From: Gemmatimonadaceae bacterium | GTDB lineage: Bacteria > Gemmatimonadota > Gemmatimonadetes > Gemmatimonadales > Gemmatimonadaceae | Reading direction: 5' to 3' | Assembly: GCA_019694735.1 (NCBI GenBank) | Contig: JAIBBJ010000214.1 | Span: 1-43,173 of the forward strand | DNA: 43,173 nt | Part shown: one piece after another, positions 4,822-19,680 of the stretch | How positions within the stretch are numbered: the stretch's first letter is position 1 | Layout of the letters: the number at the start of each line of letters is the position of its first letter | Made by a program: the position numbers and the translations under genes | Notes under the pieces: model-generated | What the model saw: the letters and a program-made list of their open reading frames with translations, nothing else | Databases searched by the model: none | What the model was told of the DNA's origin: nothing

Positions 4822-6333
4822 ATGAGGTACGAGGCGTTCCGCGCGCGGTGCGTGCCGGGCCATCTCGTGCCGGTGTGGCGCGACCACCTGCTCGACGCCG
4901 ACACGGCGGTGGGCGCGTTCCACCGGCTGCGGCAGCCGCCGTTCGCCTTCCTGCTCGAGTCGGCCCCTGCCGGGAGCGAGACCTGGGCGCGGTACACCTT
5001 CCTGGGCACCGCGCCGCGCGCCGCCTGGCGCCTCACCGACGGCGTGGTGGAGGACTGGTCGGCGGCCGCAGGGTGGCACGGGGCGCGCACGCCCGACGAC
5101 CCGTTCGCGGACCTGCGCGCGCGGCTCGTGGCGCACCCGCCGGTCCCGGCACCCGAGCTGGGGGCGTTCTGGGGGGGCGCGGTCGGCTACTTCGCGTACG
5201 ACGTCGTCCGGCACATCGAGCGGATCGGTGCGCCCCCGCCCCGCGGCGTCGCGGCGCCGGACGCGCTGTTCCTGATCACGGGGTGCGTGGTCATCATCGA
5301 CAACCTGCGCGCGCAGGCACGCGTGGTCGCGCCGGTGGTCGCCCCCGACCCGGCCGATGAGCCGGCGTGCCGCGCCGCCTGGGAGCGGGCGCAGCGCGAG
5401 ATCGATGCGACGCTCGCGCAACTGCGCGGCGGCCCCGCCCTGCCGCCGCTCGAGCTCGACCCGGACGCGCCGCCCGCGACGGGCACCTCCACGTACGACC
5501 GCGAGCGGTTCCTCGCCGACGTCGGCCGGATCAAGGCGCATATCCTCGCCGGCGACGTCTTCCAGGCGCTCCTCGCGCGGCGGATCCGCGTGCCGCACGA
5601 CTTCAGCGGCACCGCGCTCTACCGGGCGATCCGCGCGCTCAATCCGTCGCCGTACATGTACCACCTCGTGCTCGACGGCCTCGAGATCGTCGGCAGCTCG
5701 CCGGAGCTGCTGGTGCGCGTGGCCGACGGCCGGGTGGTGGTGCGGCCGATCGCCGGGACGCGCCCGCGCGGCCGCACGCCCGAGGAGGATGCCGCGCGCG
5801 CGGCGGAACTGCTGGCGGACGAGAAGGAGCGGGCGGAGCACGTGATGCTCGTGGACCTCGGCCGGAACGACGTGGGCCGGGTCGCCCGCTACGGCACGGT
5901 ACGCGTGACCGACTTGATGACCGTCGAGCGGTACTCGCACGTGCACCACATCGTCTCGCAGGTCGAGGGGGAGCTGCGCGATGATGGGTCCGCCCTGGGG
6001 ACCTTCCGCGCCGTCTTCCCGGCGGGAACGATGACCGGCGCCCCCAAGGTGCGGGCGATGCAGGTCATCGACGGCCTGGAGCCGGAGCGCCGCGGGCCGT
6101 ACGCCGGTGCGCTGGGGTACGTGGCCTGGGGGGACCAGCGGATGGATCTCGCGATCACGATCCGGACGGCGGTCCTCGCCGGCGGCGAGGCCTCGGTCCA
6201 GGCCGGCGCCGGCATCGTGGCGGACTCGGACCCGGCGGCCGAGTGGGCGGAGACGGAGAACAAGGCCCGGGCGATGCTGACGGCGATCGGGCGCGTGCGG
6301 GCGGCCGCCCGGGTGTCGCAGACTCCCGGCTAG
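4822..6333 (+). CDS. trpE: Anthranilate synthase component I
   Basis: 503 residues, the usual size for TrpE, which makes anthranilate from chorismate in tryptophan synthesis using ammonia from TrpG. The N-terminal LLES motif (44-47) is the tryptophan feedback site typical of TrpE rather than PabB. The chorismate-binding domain shows SSPELLVR, RPIAGTRPRG, the DLGRND block, FPAGTMTGAPKVRAMQ and the terminal AGAGIVADSDP/ETENKA blocks. ATG at 4822 is chosen because the family N-terminus begins there (MRYEAFRARC); the longer open frame upstream lies opposite the barrel gene. It diverges from that gene across 48 bases. No trpG lies beside it, so the glutaminase partner must be elsewhere. PabB is the main alternative, made less likely by the LLES motif. 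Confidence 0.9.
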   Translation: MRYEAFRARCVPGHLVPVWRDHLLDADTAVGAFHRLRQPPFAFLLESAPAGSETWARYTFLGTAPRAAWRLTDGVVEDWSAAAGWHGARTPDDPFADLRARLVAHPPVPAPELGAFWGGAVGYFAYDVVRHIERIGAPPPRGVAAPDALFLITGCVVIIDNLRAQARVVAPVVAPDPADEPACRAAWERAQREIDATLAQLRGGPALPPLELDPDAPPATGTSTYDRERFLADVGRIKAHILAGDVFQALLARRIRVPHDFSGTALYRAIRALNPSPYMYHLVLDGLEIVGSSPELLVRVADGRVVVRPIAGTRPRGRTPEEDAARAAELLADEKERAEHVMLVDLGRNDVGRVARYGTVRVTDLMTVERYSHVHHIVSQVEGELRDDGSALGTFRAVFPAGTMTGAPKVRAMQVIDGLEPERRGPYAGALGYVAWGDQRMDLAITIRTAVLAGGEASVQAGAGIVADSDPAAEWAETENKARAMLTAIGRVRAAARVSQTPG

Positions 6334-9751: not shown

Positions 9752-9779
9752 GGCCCGCCCGTCGCCGGCCGCGCGGGTC
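9752..9779. terminator. Weak hairpin between convergent genes
   Basis: GGCCCGC (9752-9758) can pair with GCGGGTC (9773-9779), with one G-U pair, across a 14-base loop. It sits between the heptosyltransferase stop (9750) and the cupredoxin gene end, overlapping the latter's stop codon. There is no T-run. Confidence 0.3.
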
Positions 9780-10209
9780 AGCGCTCGACCTCGACGCGCC
9801 CGACCATCCCCAGCGCGGCGTGCGGATCGCACTGGAAGTAGAACTTCCCCGTCCCGAAGGTGAGCGGAACGTCGATCGTCTGCCCCGGGAGCTGCGCGAA
9901 GGCGCTCGCCGCGGGGAGGCCGGTGCGCCCCGGGTTGGAGTCGGGGAGGAAGTGCACGTTGTGCACCCCCTGGACGAGCTTGAATCGCAGCAGGTCGCCC
10001 GGGTGCGCCTCGATCTCGGCGGGCGAGAAGTAGTTGCCCTTCTCGTCGGTGTGCATCGTGATCTCGATGACCGTGCCGGTGCTCGGCACCGCGGCGGCCG
10101 CGGGGGCCGGCGCCGCGTCGCCGGACGCCGCGGAACGATCCGAGTCGGCGCCGCCGCAGGCGGCGAGGAGGAGGGACGCGAGCGTGAGGAGACGACGGGG
10201 GGAGCGCAT
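9778..10209 (-). CDS. Cupredoxin (plastocyanin-like) lipoprotein of the nos cluster
   Basis: 143 residues with a lipoprotein signal and lipobox LAAC (Cys18), then a low-complexity Ala/Pro/Ser tether and a single cupredoxin domain from about residue 45. Type 1 copper ligands are visible: His83 (in GVHNVHF), Cys127, His130 and Met135 in the order C-x2-H-x4-M. It is therefore a membrane-anchored blue copper protein facing the periplasm. It lies 32 bases downstream of nosY, apparently the last gene of the nos operon. That suggests electron delivery to NosZ or copper handling, but neither is shown by sequence. Confidence 0.85.
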   Translation of the reverse strand: MRSPRRLLTLASLLLAACGGADSDRSAASGDAAPAPAAAAVPSTGTVIEITMHTDEKGNYFSPAEIEAHPGDLLRFKLVQGVHNVHFLPDSNPGRTGLPAASAFAQLPGQTIDVPLTFGTGKFYFQCDPHAALGMVGRVEVER

Positions 10210-10241: not shown

Positions 10242-11033
10242 TCAGAAGTCGCGCCGGAGGAAGCGGCGGCGGGCGAGGAGCACGGGCACGGCCGCCCAGG
10301 CCGTGAGGGCGACGAGCGCGACGGCCGGCCCGAGCGCGGTCCCCAGGAGCCGTCGGAAGAGCGCGCCCGTGTAGCCGAGGAGCGCCGTGGCGTCGAGCGC
10401 GGTGAGCACGAGGACGCGCGCGAGGTCCACGGGGTTGCCGAGCATCGCGACGAGCATCGGCCGTTCGAGCGGCCAGTCGCCGAAGGCGCTCACCGCGGCG
10501 ATGATCGCGCCGTCGTACGCGATGGTGAGCGCGAACCAGACGCCGATCGCGCGCGCCATGGCGCGGAGGCGGTCGTCGACGCCGTGCGCGATGACCATGG
10601 CAACGGCGGCGAAGGCGAGCGTGAGGAGCGCGCCGGCCACCGCGAGCAGCGCGAGGGCGAGCCGCGGGGCGTCGGCCGCCGCACCGTGGAGCAGGAGCGG
10701 GAGGCCGATGCCGGCGAGGAAGGCGCCGGTCATCGGGAGCGCGAGTCCGAGGTAGAGGCCGAGGAAGACGGCGCGGCGCGAGAGCGGCTGCGCGAGGAGC
10801 AGCTCGGTGAACTCGCGCGAGGCGTGGACGTGCGCCGTGCCGAAGACGAGCGCGACCAGCGGCACGACGAGCAGCATCGCGTTGAGCAGGCTCAGGACCA
10901 CCTGCGGTCCGGTGCCGCCGAAGAGGAAGAGCGCCTCGGTGACCGCCCAGAAGCCGGCGGCGTAGGCGAGGAGCCAGCGGCTGCGCGCGAGGTCGCGGAT
11001 GCCGGCGCGGAGGACGAGCGAGACGGTGCTCAT
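10242..11033 (-). CDS. nosY: NosY, ABC-2 type permease of the nitrous oxide reductase maturation transporter
   Basis: 263 residues with about six hydrophobic segments and the ABC-2 permease layout typical of NosY. One sign is the cytoplasmic loop FGTAHVHASREFTELLLAQP, matching the conserved region with E-L-L-L-x-x-P. It pairs with the NosF ATPase, whose stop overlaps this gene's ATG by four bases. With NosD it forms the NosDFY complex required to assemble the CuZ sulfide-copper centre of NosZ. Confidence 0.9.
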   Translation of the reverse strand: MSTVSLVLRAGIRDLARSRWLLAYAAGFWAVTEALFLFGGTGPQVVLSLLNAMLLVVPLVALVFGTAHVHASREFTELLLAQPLSRRAVFLGLYLGLALPMTGAFLAGIGLPLLLHGAAADAPRLALALLAVAGALLTLAFAAVAMVIAHGVDDRLRAMARAIGVWFALTIAYDGAIIAAVSAFGDWPLERPMLVAMLGNPVDLARVLVLTALDATALLGYTGALFRRLLGTALGPAVALVALTAWAAVPVLLARRRFLRRDF

Positions 11034-11740
11034 GCGATCCTCAGGCCGCGCAGCAGCGCGGCGACGGCGGGTTCGAGGCGCCGCGTCCCCGTCTCGCGGA
11101 GCAGCGCGTCCACCGGCCCCGCGAAGCGCAGCCGGCCGGCGCAGAGGAAGGCGACGTCATCGGCCAGCTCCTCGAGCTCGACGAGGATGTGCGAGCTGAT
11201 GAGGATCGTCCGGCCGGCGGCGCGCGCGGCGCGCAGGTGCGACTTGAGGAGCCCCGACGCGATGGGGTCGAGGCCCGCCGTCGGCTCGTCGAGGATCAGC
11301 AGGTCCGGCAGGAAGAGGAAGGCGCAGGCGATGGCGACCTTCTGGCGCCATCCGCCCGAGAGCGTGCCGACCGGCGTCGCCCACTCGCCGCGAAGGCCGA
11401 AGTCGTCGATGAGCGACTCGTCCACCGCGGCGCCGGGCCGCAGGGCGCGCAGCATCGCGACGACCTCGCCGACCGCCAGGTGCTCCGGGTAGCGGGGCGC
11501 CTGCGGCGCGTAGCCGATGCGCGCACGGTACGCGCCCTCGGCGTCGCAGGGGACGCCGTCGAGCAGGAGCCGGCCCGCGTCGGGGCGCGCGAGGCCGAGG
11601 AGGAGCTTGATCAGCGTCGTCTTGCCGGAACCGTTCGGGCCGACCAGCGCCACGACCCGGCCGGGCGCGAGCGAGAGCGACACGCTGTCGAGCACCGTGC
11701 GCGCGCCGTACGCCTTGCGGATGCCATCGAGCGTCATCAT
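11030..11740 (-). CDS. nosF: NosF, ABC transporter ATP-binding protein
   Basis: 236 residues: a complete ABC ATPase with Walker A GPNGSGKT, Q-loop (YAPQAP), signature LSGGWRQK, Walker B LLILDEPTAGLDP and the switch His (ISSH). It drives the NosDFY complex. The signature LSGGWRQK is typical of NosF and other ABC-2 exporters. Start at 11740 gives a four-base ATGA overlap with the nosD stop; a second ATG directly follows it. Nucleotide-binding residues all appear intact. Confidence 0.93.
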   Translation of the reverse strand: MMTLDGIRKAYGARTVLDSVSLSLAPGRVVALVGPNGSGKTTLIKLLLGLARPDAGRLLLDGVPCDAEGAYRARIGYAPQAPRYPEHLAVGEVVAMLRALRPGAAVDESLIDDFGLRGEWATPVGTLSGGWRQKVAIACAFLFLPDLLILDEPTAGLDPIASGLLKSHLRAARAAGRTILISSHILVELEELADDVAFLCAGRLRFAGPVDALLRETGTRRLEPAVAALLRGLRIA

Positions 11741-12996
11741 CGCGGGGCCCTCATCAGGGGGCGCTCGTCCGCCACCTGCGGCGTGAGCACCGGGAAGACG
11801 CGCTCGGCCGCGTCGAGCACCGCCGTCACCGGCGCGCGGAGGAGGAGCAGCGTCTCGGGATGGCGCTCGGCGACGAGCGCGAAGAGGCGGACCGGGCGGA
11901 AGGGCACGTCGCCCGTGCCGTCGCGGTCGAGGTCGTAGCCGCGGTACGCGTCCCACCAGTTGCCGACGAAGTCGCTGCGCAGCGCGCGGCTGTTCGTCGC
12001 GACGTCGAACGCGTTCCCGGAGAAGATGTTGCCGCGGAACCGGCTGTCCTCCGCGTCGGCCATGAGGCGCACCGCCCAGCCGTTGCGGCGGAAGTCGTTG
12101 TCGCGGATGTCGAGGCGCGACGCCCCCTCGAGGAAGAGGCCGACCGAGTTGCCGACGAAGCGGTTCCGGAGCAGCGCGCCGTCGGTGATCTCCTTGAGCA
12201 GGAGGCCGTAGGCGCCGCTCCCGGTCGCGTCGAGGAAGCCGTTGCCGTCCATCACGACGTGCTTGCTGTACATCACCGCGACGCCGGCGCCGTTCGCGCG
12301 GAAGGTGTTGCGCTCGTAGCGGCACGAGTCGGAAAACATGAAGTGCAGGCCGTAGCGGCGGTTCCCCTCGCTCACGTTCGCCGTCGCCACCGAGCCGTCG
12401 GAGAACTCGAAGTAGATGCCGTCGCGCTGGCCGCGGATCGTGTTCCCCTCGACGCGCGTCCCGGGGGAGTACCAGAGGTGGATCCCGTTGCCGTTGCTCG
12501 TCTCGTCGGCGCCCGCGGCGCGGATGTCGTTGTCGCGGACCACGCAGCCGGTCGTGCGCTGGAGGTAGATCGCGAAGAGGGCGTCGCGGAACGTGTTCGA
12601 CTCCACCCGGCAATCGCGCGCCTCGGCGACGCGGAGCGCCGCGCGGTCCTGCATCTGGCTCACGCCGGTGTTGCGGAAGGTGAGCCCGCGGACGGTCACG
12701 GCGTCGGCGCGCACGACGAGGACCTCGTGCGCCCCTTCGCCGTCGAACTCCGCGCCCTCCTCGCCGACGATCGTGAGGCGCGGGACGGTCACCACGACCG
12801 TCGGCTCGCGATAGCGCCCGGCGGCCACGCGGATCGTGGAGCCGGGCGTCGCCTGCGCGACGGCGGCGGCGAGCGTCGGCAGGGCCGAGCCCGGCCGCAC
12901 CAGGAGCGTCCGCGCCGGCGGCGCGCCCTGGGCGGCGAGCTCCCCCGCGGCGGCGAGCACCGCGAGGCCCAGCATGACCCGGCGGACGGCGACCAT
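11737..12996 (-). CDS. nosD: NosD, periplasmic beta-helix copper-site maturation protein
   Basis: 419 residues with a signal peptide (MVAVRRVMLGLAVLAAAGELAAQ) followed by a right-handed parallel beta-helix. Repeated NxF/NxI turns (VESNTFRD, VRDNDIRA, VEGNTIRG, IRDNDFRR, FRGNIFSG) mark the coils. The NosD hallmarks GIHLWYSP, GLHFMFSD and the late GNWWDAYRGYDLDRDGTGDVPF block are present. It docks NosL-delivered copper and feeds NosZ in the periplasm. ATG 12996 is favoured over ATG 13011 because GGGGA lies eight bases upstream and the signal peptide then starts cleanly; the longer form would overlap nosL by 14 bases. Confidence 0.93.
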   Translation of the reverse strand: MVAVRRVMLGLAVLAAAGELAAQGAPPARTLLVRPGSALPTLAAAVAQATPGSTIRVAAGRYREPTVVVTVPRLTIVGEEGAEFDGEGAHEVLVVRADAVTVRGLTFRNTGVSQMQDRAALRVAEARDCRVESNTFRDALFAIYLQRTTGCVVRDNDIRAAGADETSNGNGIHLWYSPGTRVEGNTIRGQRDGIYFEFSDGSVATANVSEGNRRYGLHFMFSDSCRYERNTFRANGAGVAVMYSKHVVMDGNGFLDATGSGAYGLLLKEITDGALLRNRFVGNSVGLFLEGASRLDIRDNDFRRNGWAVRLMADAEDSRFRGNIFSGNAFDVATNSRALRSDFVGNWWDAYRGYDLDRDGTGDVPFRPVRLFALVAERHPETLLLLRAPVTAVLDAAERVFPVLTPQVADERPLMRAPR

Positions 12997-12997
12997 C

Positions 12998-13480
12998 TCA
13001 GCGGTCCCCATGCGCGTGCGCGAGCGTGTCCGCGAGCACCGCGTTCCAGTCGGCGACCGTGCCGCCGAGCCGCGCCTGCGCGGCCCGCGCCGCCTCGATG
13101 GACGCGAAGGCCACCGCGCGCCCCATCGGCCCGCGCAGCGAGGCGTCGAGCAGGTACCCGGCGCGCTCCGCCGCGACGAAGGTCCCCGGCGCCGAGGCGT
13201 CGGTCACCCAGAGCGCGCGCGCCGTGCCCGGCTCCGCCGCGCGGACCCAACCCGCGAGGCAGTCGATGCCGTCGAACACGTGCACGCGTCCGGTGCGCGT
13301 CACCGCCTCCGCGGCGAAGCGCGGATCGGTCACCGTCATCCGGCAGTAGGCGCAGGCGTCCTCGCCGAGCGCCACGGGGCGCGGGCCGGTGCCGCCGCAG
13401 GCGAGCGCGGCGACCACGAGCACCGACACGCCGAGCCGGCGCGGTGCGGCCGACCACCCGGTGCGGCCTCCGGCGCGCAT
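12998..13480 (-). CDS. nosL: NosL, copper chaperone lipoprotein
   Basis: 160 residues. A signal peptide ends near Cys28 (VVAALAC), suggesting a lipoprotein, though the residue before the usual lipobox position is Ala rather than Leu. The mature protein opens with C43-AY-C46-R-M48, the NosL Cu(I)-binding CxYCxM motif, and continues with the conserved FDGIDCLAGW block. NosL hands Cu(I) to NosD for CuZ assembly. The ATG at 13480 overlaps the upstream membrane-protein stop by one base (TGATG). The long N-terminal extension that is open in this frame is rejected because it overlaps the neighbour. Confidence 0.9.
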   Translation of the reverse strand: MRAGGRTGWSAAPRRLGVSVLVVAALACGGTGPRPVALGEDACAYCRMTVTDPRFAAEAVTRTGRVHVFDGIDCLAGWVRAAEPGTARALWVTDASAPGTFVAAERAGYLLDASLRGPMGRAVAFASIEAARAAQARLGGTVADWNAVLADTLAHAHGDR

Positions 13481-14064
13481 CAGGCCGCCTCCGGGCGGCG
13501 CCGCGACGTCCATGACGCCCAGAGCACGAGCCCCCCCGCGAGCGCGAGCGCGACGCCGCCCGCGGCGGGCCACGAGGTCGCGGTGAAGTTGAGCAGCTTC
13601 TTGCGGCCGATCACCGGCGGCGAGTAGCTCATGCCGGGGATCTTGATGATGGCATGCTCGTGGTCGAGGTCGTGGCCGTAGTCGTAGCCCCAGCGCCAGT
13701 AGTCCCAGAGCCCCACGCCCATGACCCCGATCAGGAGCGCGCCGTACAGGAAGAGCGGGACCCGCCGCCGCAGCGCGGCGACGGCGAGTCCGGCGACGAT
13801 GAGCCCGGCGAGGATCCAGGGCATGAACCGCAGCTCCGGGATCGACTCGGGCTCGATCGTCTTCATGCCGATGTAATGGTTCAGCCCGTTGATCGACTGC
13901 AGGTCATTGGGCTTGAGCCCGTCCACGCCGTCGATGCGGATCAGCATGCCCAGCCCCTCGGGGTACTGCGGCGCGATCAGGTCCACGCGCCAGAGGGGGA
14001 GGAAGTACCCGGTCGCGAGGAGCGCGACCGCCGCGAGCACGAGCCAGCGTGAACGGGCCGTCAT
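13480..14064 (-). CDS. nos-cluster membrane protein, possible NosB counterpart
   Basis: 194 residues with an N-terminal membrane anchor (LVLAAVALLATGYFLPLW). A periplasmic loop follows, including SINGLNHYIGMK, then two central membrane segments (about 83-120), a His/Asp/Tyr-rich loop (WDYWRWGYDYGHDLDHEHAIIK) and a last membrane segment near 168-186. It lies seven bases after nosZ and runs into nosL. In clade II nos operons such as that of Wolinella an integral membrane protein (NosB) occupies this place. I infer a matching role from position and size, not from a recognised motif. The acidic and histidine-rich loop could bind metal. Confidence 0.7.
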   Translation of the reverse strand: MTARSRWLVLAAVALLATGYFLPLWRVDLIAPQYPEGLGMLIRIDGVDGLKPNDLQSINGLNHYIGMKTIEPESIPELRFMPWILAGLIVAGLAVAALRRRVPLFLYGALLIGVMGVGLWDYWRWGYDYGHDLDHEHAIIKIPGMSYSPPVIGRKKLLNFTATSWPAAGGVALALAGGLVLWASWTSRRRPEAA

Positions 14065-14071
14065 GGTCGCC

Positions 14072-16057
14072 TCAGTTGGAGCCGCGGGCCTGCGCGCCGC
14101 GGCGGGTGTTGGCGGTGAGGGCCACCGTCGAGCCGGCCGGCGAGACCCGGATGTAGCCCTGCATCTCCTGGTGGAGGGCCGAGCAGAAGTCGGTGCAGTA
14201 CATCGGGTAGACGCCCGGCTTCTTCGGGAGCCAGCGCAGGGTGCGCGTCTCCCCCGGCATGATCAGCAGCTCGGAGGTGTTGGCGCCGAGGATCGCGAAG
14301 CCGTGCGGGACGTCCCAGTCCTGCTCGAGGTTGGTGACGTGCACGAGCACCGTGTCGCCGACCTGCACGCCCTCGATGTTGTCGGGCGCGAAGTGCGACC
14401 GGATGGCCGTCATGCGGACGTGCACGGTGCGGCCCTCGCGGTTGACGCCCGTCTCGCGCTCGCTGCGCGAGACCATCGGGTGCCGGTTCTCGGCGATCTT
14501 GTAGAACTTCACCTGGCGGTCCACGACCTTCTTCGCGTCGATCGCGTTGGCGTAGTGCGGCTCGCCCTGGGTCGGGAAGTCGAGCAGGAGCTTCATCTTG
14601 TCGCCGGTGATGTCGTAGAGCTGCGCCGACTGCGTGAGCTCCGGGCCGGTCGGGAGGTAGCGGTCCTTCGTGATCTTGTTCATCGCGAGGACGTAGCGGC
14701 CGTACGGGTGGCGCGTGGCGCCGCCGGGGATCATCAGGTGGCCCACCGAGTAGAAGGTCGGCGCGCGATCGACCACCTCGCGGGTCTCGACGTTCCACTT
14801 CACGACCTCGGACGAGATGAACATCGAGGTGTAGGCGAAGCCCTTGCCGTCGAACTCGGTGTGGAGGGGGCCGAGGCCCGGCTCCTTCACCTCGCCGGCG
14901 ATCGTGCTCTCGTACTTGAGGACCGGGATCCCCTCGAGCTCACCCTCGAACTGCCGGTCCGCGATGGCCTTCAGCATCTTGGTGGCCGAGTGGACCGGGA
15001 TCACCGTGGCGAGCTTGCCGCCCGCGACGATGTACTCGCCGGTCGGGTCGACGTCGGCGCCGTGCGGCGACTTGGGCGTCGGGAGGAAGTAGATCGCGCC
15101 GGGGCACTGCGCGGCGGTGATCTGGAGGACGCTGGTCATCCGCTCCGAGCGCGCGACGCGCGAGAACTCGTCGAACACGTTGTGCCGGTACTCCGCCGGC
15201 GCGCGGACCCCCTTCCCCGCCTTGGCGCACGCCTCGGCGGCGCGGTAGTTCACCGCGGCGATGTAATCCTTGTCGTTCTGCGAGGCGTTCACCTCGAGCA
15301 GCGTGCTGGCCTGTTCCGAGTTGTACGAGGTGAAGAACATCCAGCCGTCCGACGGCCCCTTGCCCGCGCGGGCCAGGTCGTAGTTGAACCCGGGCACGAT
15401 GAGCTGGAAGGCGATGTCCATCTTCCCCGGCTGGTTCGCCGTGATGAAGGAGATCTGGCCCTTGAAGAACTTCTTGTACTCGTCGATCGGCACGTCGCGG
15501 TTCGGCACCGGGATCGAGAAGCGCGTCGACGAGACGATGTACTCGGTGTTCCCCGTCACGAAGGGCGAGGCGTGGTTGCCGCTCGCGTTCGGGATCTCGA
15601 GGATCTCGGTCGTCTCGAAGGTCGCGAGGTCGATGCGCGCCACGCGCGGCGTGTTGTTCCCGTTCACGAAGATCCAGCGACCGTCGTCGTCGCCCTCGGT
15701 CTGCGAGAGCGCCGTGTGGTGCAGGTCGTCCCACGGCACGAAGCCGTAGGAGGTCTCGAGCATCGCCTTCGTCTCCTCGTTGTAGCCGTACCCGTTCTCG
15801 GCGTGCTGCGAGAAGACCGGGATCGTGCGGAGGAGGCGGCCGGAGGGGAGGCCATAGACGCCGAGCTGGCCACCGAAGCCGCCGGAGAGGAAGGCGTAGA
15901 GCTCATCCTTCTCGCCGGGCGCGACGTAGACGCGCTGCGCCATCTCGGCGGTGCCGGCGAGCGAGCCGGAGCCGCGTCCCGCGCAGGCGTAGCCAAGGCC
16001 GAGCACGGTGAGGGCACCGGCACCGAAGAGGATTCGGGATCGCGAGAGGAGGGACAT
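14072..16057 (-). CDS. nosZ: Nitrous oxide reductase, clade II (Sec-type)
   Basis: 661 residues; reduces N2O to N2 in the periplasm. The signal region (MSLLSRSRILFGAGALTVLGLGYACAG) has no twin-arginine pair, so export should be by Sec, as in clade II enzymes. The N-terminal seven-bladed propeller carries likely CuZ ligands H113/H114 (DLHHTALSQTEG), H162 (NHASPF), H332 (PHGADVDPTGEY), H399 (PLHTEFDG), H440 (VGHLM) and H501 (EPHYAN). The C-terminal cupredoxin domain has the CuA set H585 (VPHGF), C621, C625, H629 and M632 in CTDFCSALHQEM. All copper ligands appear present, so the enzyme should be active. A GAGG ribosome site precedes ATG 16057. It is the first gene of the operon. Confidence 0.96.
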   Translation of the reverse strand: MSLLSRSRILFGAGALTVLGLGYACAGRGSGSLAGTAEMAQRVYVAPGEKDELYAFLSGGFGGQLGVYGLPSGRLLRTIPVFSQHAENGYGYNEETKAMLETSYGFVPWDDLHHTALSQTEGDDDGRWIFVNGNNTPRVARIDLATFETTEILEIPNASGNHASPFVTGNTEYIVSSTRFSIPVPNRDVPIDEYKKFFKGQISFITANQPGKMDIAFQLIVPGFNYDLARAGKGPSDGWMFFTSYNSEQASTLLEVNASQNDKDYIAAVNYRAAEACAKAGKGVRAPAEYRHNVFDEFSRVARSERMTSVLQITAAQCPGAIYFLPTPKSPHGADVDPTGEYIVAGGKLATVIPVHSATKMLKAIADRQFEGELEGIPVLKYESTIAGEVKEPGLGPLHTEFDGKGFAYTSMFISSEVVKWNVETREVVDRAPTFYSVGHLMIPGGATRHPYGRYVLAMNKITKDRYLPTGPELTQSAQLYDITGDKMKLLLDFPTQGEPHYANAIDAKKVVDRQVKFYKIAENRHPMVSRSERETGVNREGRTVHVRMTAIRSHFAPDNIEGVQVGDTVLVHVTNLEQDWDVPHGFAILGANTSELLIMPGETRTLRWLPKKPGVYPMYCTDFCSALHQEMQGYIRVSPAGSTVALTANTRRGAQARGSN

Positions 16058-16128: not shown

Positions 16129-16151
16129 AAGATGCATTTTACTTGCACCTT
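16129..16151. promoter_or_regulatory. NsrR-type operator in the nosZ-nsrR divergent region
   Basis: An interrupted palindrome of AAGATGCAT (16129-16137), five bases TTTAC, and TTGCACCTT (16143-16151). The right arm matches the reverse complement of the left at seven of nine bases. The arm AAGATGCAT and the 23-base overall length match the known NsrR binding consensus. The site lies 72 bases before nosZ and 58 bases before nsrR, and in an AT-rich island within GC-rich DNA, so it could govern both directions. Confidence 0.7.
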
Positions 16152-16209: not shown

Positions 16210-16641
16210 ATGCGACTCACCCGATACACCGACAACGCACTGCGCGCGCTCATCTACATCGGACTCCACGACGACACGCCCTCGCGCATCACCGACATCG
16301 CCCGACGCATGGGCATGTCGGAGGACCACACCGCGAAGGTGATCGCCCGCCTCGCCGAACTCGGCTTCGTCACGACCCTTCGCGGCCGCGCCGGCGGCGT
16401 GCGGCTCGCGCGGCCCGCGGCCGAGATCAACATCGGCCAGGTCGTGCGCGCGACCGAGGACAACCTGAACCTCGTGGAGTGCTTCGACGCCGAGGCGAAC
16501 CGGTGCCCCATCGCGCCGGCCTGCGCGCTCGCTCCCGCGCTCGACGAGGCGCTCGGCGCCTTCCTCGCCGTCCTCGACCGCTACACGCTCGCGCAGCTCA
16601 CCGAGAAGCCGCGCGCGTTGCAGCGCCTCCTCATCGCCTGA
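16210..16641 (+). CDS. nsrR: NsrR-like Rrf2-family nitric oxide-sensing repressor
   Basis: 143 residues. The start MRLTRYTDNALRALIYI is the Rrf2/NsrR N-terminus, followed by a winged helix (recognition region about 35-60, SEDHTAKVIARLAELGFV). Three cysteines C91, C99 and C105 (LVECF...CPIAPAC) match the spacing of the NsrR iron-sulfur ligands; the cluster is destroyed by nitric oxide, releasing the DNA. It diverges from nosZ, with a matching operator between them. The inference is that NO, the substrate precursor of N2O, induces the nos genes and this regulator. Confidence 0.9.
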   Translation: MRLTRYTDNALRALIYIGLHDDTPSRITDIARRMGMSEDHTAKVIARLAELGFVTTLRGRAGGVRLARPAAEINIGQVVRATEDNLNLVECFDAEANRCPIAPACALAPALDEALGAFLAVLDRYTLAQLTEKPRALQRLLIA

Positions 16642-16685: not shown

Positions 16686-17147
16686 ATGGACTGGTTCGTC
16701 CGCGCCTTCCTCAAGGCCAGCCTCGTCTGGTTCTCGCTCGCCGTCGGCCTCGCGCTCCTCATGGCCGTGCTGCCGATGCTGACCGTCTACCGGACGGCCC
16801 ATCTCCACCTCGCGCTGCTCGGCTTCGTCACGCAGATGATCTACGGAGTGGCGCTCCACGTGGTCCCGCGCTTCTTCGGCCAGCCGCTGGTGCACCGGCG
16901 CCTGGCCGAGGTGCAGTTCTGGGCGGCGCAGGCGGGGCTCACGCTCCTCGCGGCGGGCTTCGTCGCGCGGGTGAACGGCTGGCCGCTCGCCGGCGCGGCG
17001 ATCGGCGCCGGCGGATTCGCGTCGGCGGTGGGGGCCGCCTGCTTCGTCGTGAACCTCTGGCGGACGATGGACGCGAGCCCGATGCGCGCGGTGCAGGCGC
17101 GCGGCGGGCGTCCGCTCGCGACGCTCCCGCAGGCGGACGCGCACTGA
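16686..17147 (+). CDS. Four-helix membrane protein resembling part of heme-copper oxidase subunit I
   Basis: 153 residues with four predicted membrane helices (about 12-32, 37-58, 78-95 and 100-125). The second carries H39 and H41 (RTAHLHLALLGF) and H58 followed by VVPRF, a pattern seen in cbb3-type oxidase and NO reductase subunit I and in related small proteins often found beside nitrogen-oxide genes. It is far too short to be a full oxidase. It lies 44 bases after nsrR on the same strand and so is probably co-regulated with it. A role in NO response or heme or electron handling is inference only. Confidence 0.75.
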   Translation: MDWFVRAFLKASLVWFSLAVGLALLMAVLPMLTVYRTAHLHLALLGFVTQMIYGVALHVVPRFFGQPLVHRRLAEVQFWAAQAGLTLLAAGFVARVNGWPLAGAAIGAGGFASAVGAACFVVNLWRTMDASPMRAVQARGGRPLATLPQADAH

Positions 17148-18280: not shown

Positions 18281-18610
18281 GTGACCACCACCGCCCGCCC
18301 CGACACCGACCGCTCCGTGGCGCTGTTCCACGCCCTCTCCGACGCGACGCGCCTCGAGATCCTCGAGATGCTGCGCGCCGGCGAGCGGTGCGTCTGCGAG
18401 CTCCAGGACGAGCTCGACGCGGCGCAGTCGCGGCTGTCGTTCCACCTCAAGGTCCTCCGCGAGGCCGGCCTCGTGGCGGACCGGAAGGAAGGGCGCTGGT
18501 CGTACTACCGCATCGTCCCGGAGGCGCTCACCGAGGTCCACGACCTCGCCGTCGCGCTGCAGCCCCGCAAAGGCACCCTGCCGGTGCGCACGACCGGCTG
18601 CTGCACCTGA
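18281..18610 (+). CDS. arsR: ArsR family arsenite-responsive repressor
   Basis: 109 residues: a winged-helix ArsR/SmtB protein with [24 protein letters not shown]. The C37-V-C39 pair is the usual As(III) site at the DNA-reading region, and a second pair C107/C108 lies at the C-terminus (TTGCCT). The recognition helix is about 47-62 ([17 protein letters not shown]). It begins with GTG directly after a promoter-like element and probably represses itself and arsM. Confidence 0.93.
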
Positions 18611-18629
18611 GATTCTTTTCGCTCAATCC

Positions 18630-18645
18630 ATCAGTTTTTCTTGAT
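18630..18645 (+). promoter_or_regulatory. Imperfect inverted repeat before arsM, possible second ArsR site
   Basis: ATCAG (18630-18634), six bases, TTGAT (18641-18645); the arms match at four of five positions in reverse complement. It lies in the AT-rich 56-base gap between arsR and arsM. Binding by ArsR is possible but not shown. Confidence 0.3.
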
Positions 18646-18666
18646 CAGCCCCAACAGGGAGTGATG

Positions 18667-19680
18667 ATGAGCAAGGCCACGAAGATGCCCACCACGCTCG
18701 ACGAGATCCGTGCGACGGTCGCCGCGCGCTACGGTGCGACCGCGAAGGCCGTCGCCGACGGCGCCGCCACCGCGAGCTGCTGCGGCCCGGCGGGCGAGTC
18801 GAGCGGCTGCTGCGGCGCGACGAACGAGACCTGGGATCCCATCACCGCTGACCTCTACGACGCGGGCCAGACGGCGGGACTGCCGGCGGAGGCGCTCCTC
18901 GCCTCCCTCGGATGCGGCAACCCGACCGCGCTCGCCGAGCTGCGGGAGGGCGAGGTGGTGCTCGACCTCGGCTCGGGCGGCGGCATCGACGTGCTCCTCT
19001 CGGCCCGCCGCGTGGGGCCGACGGGCAAGGCGTACGGCCTCGACATGACGGACGAGATGCTCGCGCTGGCGCAGGAGAACAAGGCGAAGGCCGGCGCCAC
19101 GAACGTCGAGTTCCTGCGCGGCCACATCGAGGCGATCCCGCTCCCCTCGAACAGCGTGGACGTGATCATCTCGAACTGCGTGATCAACCTCTCCGGCGAC
19201 AAGCGGAAGGTGCTGCAGGAGGCGTTCCGCGTGCTGCGGCCCGGCGGCCGCTTCGCGGTGAGCGACGTGATCACGCGTGCCGGCCTCCCGGCCGCGGTGA
19301 AGGAGAGCATGGCGCTCTGGACCGGCTGCGTGGCCGGGGCACTCGAGGAGACGGAGTTCGTCGCGCTGCTGCGCGAGGCCGGATTCGAGGACGCGGGCAT
19401 CGAGCCGACGCGCGAGTACACGCGGGACGACGCGCTGGCGCTGATCGCCGGCACCGGTCTGGACCCGGCGCTCGCCGACGGCGTCGAAGGCCGCATCCTC
19501 AGCGCCTTCGTGCGGGCCCGGAAGCCCGGTGGCCGCACGGCGACCGCAGCCCCCGGGGCGGTGGCGGTGGGGCGCGAGGCGGGCGAACGTCCCGCCAAGC
19601 CCGCGCGCCCACTGGCGACGCTCGGTGCGACGACGACCGGCAGCCGCGCGTGCGGCTGCGCGGACGACTGCTGCTCGTGA
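18667..19680 (+). CDS. arsM: Arsenite S-adenosylmethionine methyltransferase
   Basis: 337 residues. Methylates As(III) with SAM, giving mono-, di- and trimethylated arsenicals. The SAM motif is DLGSGGG (100-106). The three cysteines conserved in ArsM are present at C83 ([11 protein letters not shown]), C171 (ISNCVINLS) and C221 ([11 protein letters not shown]). Extra cysteine pairs occur at 38-39 and 48-49, and a tail of about 50 residues ends in [15 protein letters not shown] at 18656-18661 is best spaced for ATG 18667, though ATG 18664 is one codon upstream. Follows arsR by 56 bases. Confidence 0.94.

Follow-up and report, generated by a model that had tools for sequence, protein, structure and literature searches.

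A predicted NsrR-type operator between divergent clade II nosZ and Rrf2 regulator genes in Gemmatimonadaceae

Organisms with clade II nosZ are important soil sinks of nitrous oxide (N2O), and many of them make no N2O; little is known about the signal that turns on their N2O reductase. The 43,173-nt stretch of Gemmatimonadaceae DNA analyzed here (contig JAIBBJ010000214.1, hereafter the window) poses this question at one intergenic region, from which nosZ and a gene for an Rrf2-family regulator are divergently oriented. Two reports already document NsrR control of nosZ, in Magnetospirillum gryphiswaldense, where NsrR represses the gene directly by binding to its promoter (PMC11014258), and, in sediment metagenomes, an enrichment of Rrf2 genes beside clade II nosZ, in nos clusters without nosR (PMC6264515). 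The locus contains the following features.

9778-10209, minus strand: plastocyanin/pseudoazurin-like copper protein (PF00127, 39.3 bits)
10242-11033, minus strand: nosY-like ABC permease (assigned by eye)
11030-11740, minus strand: nosF-like ABC ATPase (assigned by eye)
11737-13011, minus strand: nosD-like periplasmic copper-site maturation protein (assigned by eye from the translation)
12998-13573, minus strand: nosL (PF05573, 51.5 bits)
13480-14064, minus strand: membrane protein of the nos cluster, no family match
14072-16057, minus strand: nosZ, Sec-dependent (clade II) nitrous oxide reductase, 661 aa (TIGR04246, 920.7 bits, cut-off 625)
16129-16151, no strand: predicted NsrR-type operator, AAGATGCAT-TTTAC-TTGCACCTT, an imperfect palindrome with arms at 16129-16137 and 16143-16151
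16136-16141, minus strand: candidate -10 hexamer of the nosZ promoter, TAAAAT, inside the operator, proposed from its position
16210-16641, plus strand: nsrR-like Rrf2 regulator, 143 aa, with D8, C91, C99, and C105, divergent from nosZ
16686-17147, plus strand: small COX1/CcoN-like membrane protein, 153 aa, the next gene after nsrR

The assignment of the reductase to clade II, made in the first-pass annotation, is borne out by the model scores, which are far higher for the Sec-dependent type than for the TAT type (362.8 bits). On the other side of the gap, the COX1/CcoN-like gene would use the nsrR promoter, and each of the seven genus members with nosZ and the regulator has a relative of it in the locus. 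Small membrane proteins of this kind (about 150 aa) recur beside nosZ and nirK (window 16686-17147; L190:7937-8374; L192:7780-8238) and adjoin nosZ also in a sister family of the order, where the regulator is absent; they are possibly NO- or heme-related accessory proteins. Further downstream, at 18281-19680, an ArsR-type regulator, an arsenite-methyltransferase-like gene, and a GNAT acetyltransferase-like gene were recognized by eye in this order.

An NsrR-type palindrome had been proposed between nosZ and the Rrf2 gene, and the 23-mer AAGATGCATTTTACTTGCACCTT, of the form AAGATGCAT-N5-TTGCACCTT, lies exactly at 16129-16151. Measured from this site, the ATG of nosZ (16057, minus strand) is 71 nt away and that of the regulator (16210, plus strand) 58 nt. 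In direct reading against the NsrR consensus gATGyAT-N5-ATrCATc, its left arm agrees at 7 of 7 and its right arm at 5 of 7 positions; the site stands as proposed, with a symmetry that is imperfect (8 of 11 positions). The 23-mer is the sole match at up to three mismatches in the window, where none is expected from 100 dinucleotide shuffles, and it scores 28.4 bits with a matrix of proteobacterial Rrf2 promoter sites (described below), the runner-up in the window reaching 4.7 bits. Pattern-based scans of the 3.52 Mb genome located the relaxed palindrome with fewer than three mismatches at this position alone; the single other match has three mismatches and overlaps an open reading frame. The operator occupies the AT-rich trough of the 152-bp gap, with a GC content of 0.35 vs. 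0.65-0.87 closer to nosZ; the island described in the first-pass annotation is thus present, and its low GC continues past the site to about 16173. A scan for consensus sigma-70 promoters gave no match, which is unsurprising because the DNA is GC-rich. Other known types of control were considered for the same gap and rejected. The FNR/DNR-type motif TTGAT-N4-ATCAA (up to two mismatches) occurs elsewhere in the window and is absent from the nosZ gap, as are TTGA-N6-TCAA of the FNR type and the iron box TGA-N9-TCA; the one Crp/FNR-type gene of the genome is located on another contig.

The genus comparison comprised 13 genomes, seven with nosZ and the regulator and six with neither. A strict pattern found one operator site in each of the seven carriers and none in the six other members, and the reversed pattern, used as a control, found none in the genus genomes. 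When the seven gaps are aligned, 13 of the 18 columns in the arms show no variation, compared with 25 of 107 ungapped columns elsewhere in the gap. Loss of the arms in relatives had been named beforehand as an outcome that would count against the site; the arms are kept in all seven carriers and have changed together in sister genera.

The divergent nosZ-nsrR arrangement recurs in 37 gaps from eleven genera of the family. For an outside comparison, a matrix was built from ten proteobacterial sites only, all of them upstream of Rrf2 genes and mostly located beside hmp or other NO-related genes; for instance, the Rrf2/hmp gap of Acidocella contains AAGATGCATTATGTATACATCTT. This matrix is independent of the phylum of the window and not of the consensus, because its sites were chosen by their likeness to the published consensus type. 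At p<0.05 against shuffles it recognizes a site in 27 of the 37 nosZ gaps with the regulator vs. 2 of 36 nosZ upstream regions without it (rank test 5e-11, a value that overstates the evidence because the genomes are related), and at the genus level at least one significant site was found in eight of the eleven genera. In genera g12, g17, and g19 the gene pair is present, and scans with the matrix and with the plain consensus gave no recognizable site. Genus g3 has a diverged site, which escapes the plain consensus scan, and retains an imperfect palindrome AATCTCGGAT..ATACCAGATT. Two g8 genomes have kept nosZ, and both the adjacent regulator and the site are absent from them. The arms of genus g10 are AAGTGGTAT and ATNCCACTT (AAGTGGTAT...CCACTT), altered together on both sides, as expected for the operator of a dimer. 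In many genera nosZ and nsrR remain divergent around the site, and the distance between the site and nsrR varies about twofold. The nosZ strand of the operator core reads TAATAT or TAAAAT in most relatives, with a GAC-containing element upstream. The gaps of g1, g3, g8, and g10 also share two conserved elements, AGTCNGG and GTCNGG, which lie between the operator and nsrR at a spacing of about 30 nt and are perhaps part of the nsrR promoter.

Most g10 genomes contain a second copy of the operator, and in all nine that have a gene for the ScdA_N domain (PF04405) this copy lies 63-85 nt before that domain, in a layout similar to that of the operator core and GAC element on the nosZ strand. ScdA/YtfE (RIC) proteins have the ScdA_N domain at their N-terminus. 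In the genus of the window, the member G126 has a second, looser site of 22.2 bits immediately ahead of an operon that comprises a gene for a 4Fe-4S membrane protein and nirK. Both kinds of genes are NsrR targets, ytfE/dnrN being a classic one (PMC1274295). In 649 kb of fetched DNA from the phylum of the window, 31 distinct 23-mers reach at least 12 bits, and nearly all of them are located at nosZ-nsrR gaps, ScdA_N genes, or the one nirK operon. The argument for a regulon of NO-related genes rests on these relatives (ScdA_N in g10, nirK in G126), because the ScdA_N and nirK genes of the window's own genome have no such site; there the regulator seems to serve nosZ and itself only. Two side observations concern other sites. 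G126 has a 16.6-bit NsrR-type site (contig C3, L163:589-611) about 230 nt before a CoxB/CoxA pair, perhaps a CuA-type oxidase or an unusual NO reductase; this site was left out of the argument because no nitric oxide reductase family matched. A different palindrome, TCAAGGTATATTCCTTGA, occurs twice on contig C224 of genome G000 (L190:3256-3278 and 5950-5972), ahead of an ScdA_N-type gene and next to the gene of a SufR-like regulator (L190:2557-3270, minus strand) near an NnrS-like gene, and probably marks a further regulon of this genus, of the Fe-S or NO type.

The regulator itself is a member of the Rrf2 family with the winged-helix fold (PF02082, 123.5 bits, cut-off 30). Its best match among solved structures is Streptomyces coelicolor NsrR (5n07, 1.2e-20), and D8 and the three cysteines of the ligand set are kept in all complete orthologs aligned. 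Asp8 belongs to the ligand set of [4Fe-4S] NsrR (PMC5411485). The regulator reaches 124.7 of the 182 bits required by the NCBIfam equivalog model of NsrR and 145.6 of the 193 bits required by the RirA model, falling below both cut-offs and scoring higher with the latter. Hmp-linked Rrf2 relatives from alpha- and betaproteobacteria (136-145 bits) fall under the NsrR cut-off too, and the model thus looks restricted to the enteric type. The three cysteines had been taken as spaced in the NsrR manner. They are present in the Rrf2 neighbor of nosZ, but their CX7CX5C spacing is nearly the same in a fetched RirA (L197; 286 bits to the RirA model, Asn8) and therefore cannot separate the two types, which makes the argument from spacing weaker than stated. 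It is residue 8 that separates them: RirA has a conserved Asn8 and NsrR Asp8, and the substitution N8D gives RirA an NsrR-like cluster that is much less sensitive to low iron (PMC10510648). In a tree of 47 Rrf2 proteins, all regulators of the phylum group together (support 100/97) with the single RirA as a weakly supported sister (92/72), the deep branches being unresolved; several of the nearest proteobacterial relatives adjoin hmp. The IRO box of RirA targets is TGA-N9-TCA, which, as noted above, is missing from the nosZ-nsrR gap.

We propose that the Rrf2 protein is an NsrR-type [4Fe-4S] regulator and that the 23-bp element is its operator. The ligands that such a cluster would use, C91, C99, and C105 together with D8 of the partner subunit, are present. 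A cluster-loaded dimer on the operator would cover the -10 region of nosZ, and RNA polymerase would therefore be blocked and the nos operon repressed; from the same operator, the dimer would repress nsrR itself and the COX1-like gene behind it. NO would destroy or nitrosylate the cluster, the dimer would leave, and nosZ would be transcribed. The cluster type, NO as the signal, the direction of repression, and the position of the promoter are inferred, repression by the cluster-loaded dimer and its release by NO being known for NsrR. Judged from the sequences, the conserved operator most likely lets an NO-sensing protein hold nosZ off until NO appears, and it is quite probable that an NsrR-type Fe-S repressor released by NO binds over the likely -10 box of this clade II nosZ. 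Comparison among genomes shows that the site exists and is conserved, that it goes together with the regulator gene and matches the Rrf2/hmp operators of proteobacteria, that relatives use it a second time before a gene of the Fe-S repair type, and that the ligands are kept.

The same operator might serve an Rrf2 protein that senses iron or Fe-S/O2 status in the manner of RirA, so that nosZ would follow iron or oxygen and not NO. The model scores, the cysteine spacing shared with L197, and the weak sister position in the tree are in line with this reading, as is the ScdA_N target, a gene of the Fe-S repair type. However, residue 8 is Asp as in NsrR, in place of the Asn conserved in RirA (PMC10510648), the gap has no IRO-type box, the operators match those of hmp-linked Rrf2 genes, and the genes targeted are nosZ and ScdA_N, joined in one genome by nirK; we consider sensing of iron or oxygen unlikely. 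Still less likely, in our estimate, is a site that serves the autoregulation of nsrR only, with nosZ under other control and close to it by accident. The site is slightly closer to nsrR than to nosZ, but the two genes stay divergent around it in many genera despite the variable distance to nsrR, and the TAAAAT/TAATAT core with its GAC element lies on the nosZ strand and has a similar counterpart before the ScdA_N gene, a target other than nsrR.

Activation of nosZ from the operator in place of repression would have a precedent in Magnetospirillum NsrR, which activates some promoters; nosZ itself is repressed there (PMC11014258), and the overlap of our operator with the likely -10 box is the position of a repressor, which leaves activation a very improbable reading. 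A chance palindrome within the AT-rich island, for which the imperfect arms might speak, has practically no likelihood left: none is expected in shuffles, each carrier genome has one copy, and the conservation of the arms in all seven has already refuted it.

The proposed NsrR-type control of nosZ shares features with several known systems. NsrR of Escherichia coli and other gamma- and betaproteobacteria, with a gATGyAT-N5-ATrCATc regulon of hmp, ytfE/dnrN, nnrS, hcp, norB, and nirK (PMC1274295), has the same Rrf2 fold, the three cysteines and Asp8, and an operator that agrees in length, spacing, and arm sequence and that, in relatives of the window's genome, is likewise found at the ScdA_N gene (of the ytfE type) and, in a single genome, at a nirK operon. 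In contrast to these proteins, the regulator described here falls under the NCBIfam NsrR cut-off, its adjacent target is clade II nosZ, and the strict pattern finds a single operator per genome in its genus. The predicted action on the nosZ promoter is shared with M. gryphiswaldense, a member of another phylum, whose NsrR regulates broadly, has degenerate sites, and acts as an activator of genes as well; the accessible part of that report describes no operator shared by nosZ and nsrR (PMC11014258). The sediment metagenomes show the same adjacency, reported in the available text without an operator or an assignment to NsrR by residues or regulon (PMC6264515). S. coelicolor NsrR (PDB 5n07/7b0c), the closest structure, agrees in the Asp8 ligand and the cysteines and differs in its operator sequence. 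To our knowledge, it has three target genes, and nosZ is not among the known ones. Rhizobial RirA resembles the regulator in family, cysteine spacing, and a somewhat higher model score than that of NsrR, but has Asn8, an IRO box, and an iron-uptake regulon. A parallel pairing exists in a well-studied bacterium, on plasmid pRCB133 of Rhodobacter capsulatus SB 1003 (L123, 60043-68441), where an Rrf2 gene and an operon containing nosR and nosZ are divergently oriented; however, this nosZ is of clade I (TAT-dependent), a small gene lies in between, the Rrf2 protein is on a separate branch of the tree, and the region upstream of its gene has no matching operator. Our literature search, conducted mostly without subscription papers, found none that assigns the regulators of this phylum to NsrR, defines their operator, or shows an operator shared by nosZ and nsrR.

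Four of the seven genus members with the gene pair have no NirK match above the cut-off. We tentatively suggest, holding it slightly more doubtful than probable, that the regulator of this genus is dedicated to nitrous oxide reductase, with one operator per genome, even in the absence of a recognizable copper nitrite reductase (G126, with its site before nirK, being an exception), and that NO, possibly made by neighbors, acts as an advance signal that switches on N2O respiration in a non-denitrifying consumer. A defined operator and regulator reduce the question of the switch to an experiment on one promoter, and the lineage-specific operator variants provide a ready matrix for the annotation of NO regulons in the phylum. 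If the proposed control is true, a greenhouse-gas sink of the soil type would be tied to an NO signal, and NO from neighbors could set the consumption of N2O.
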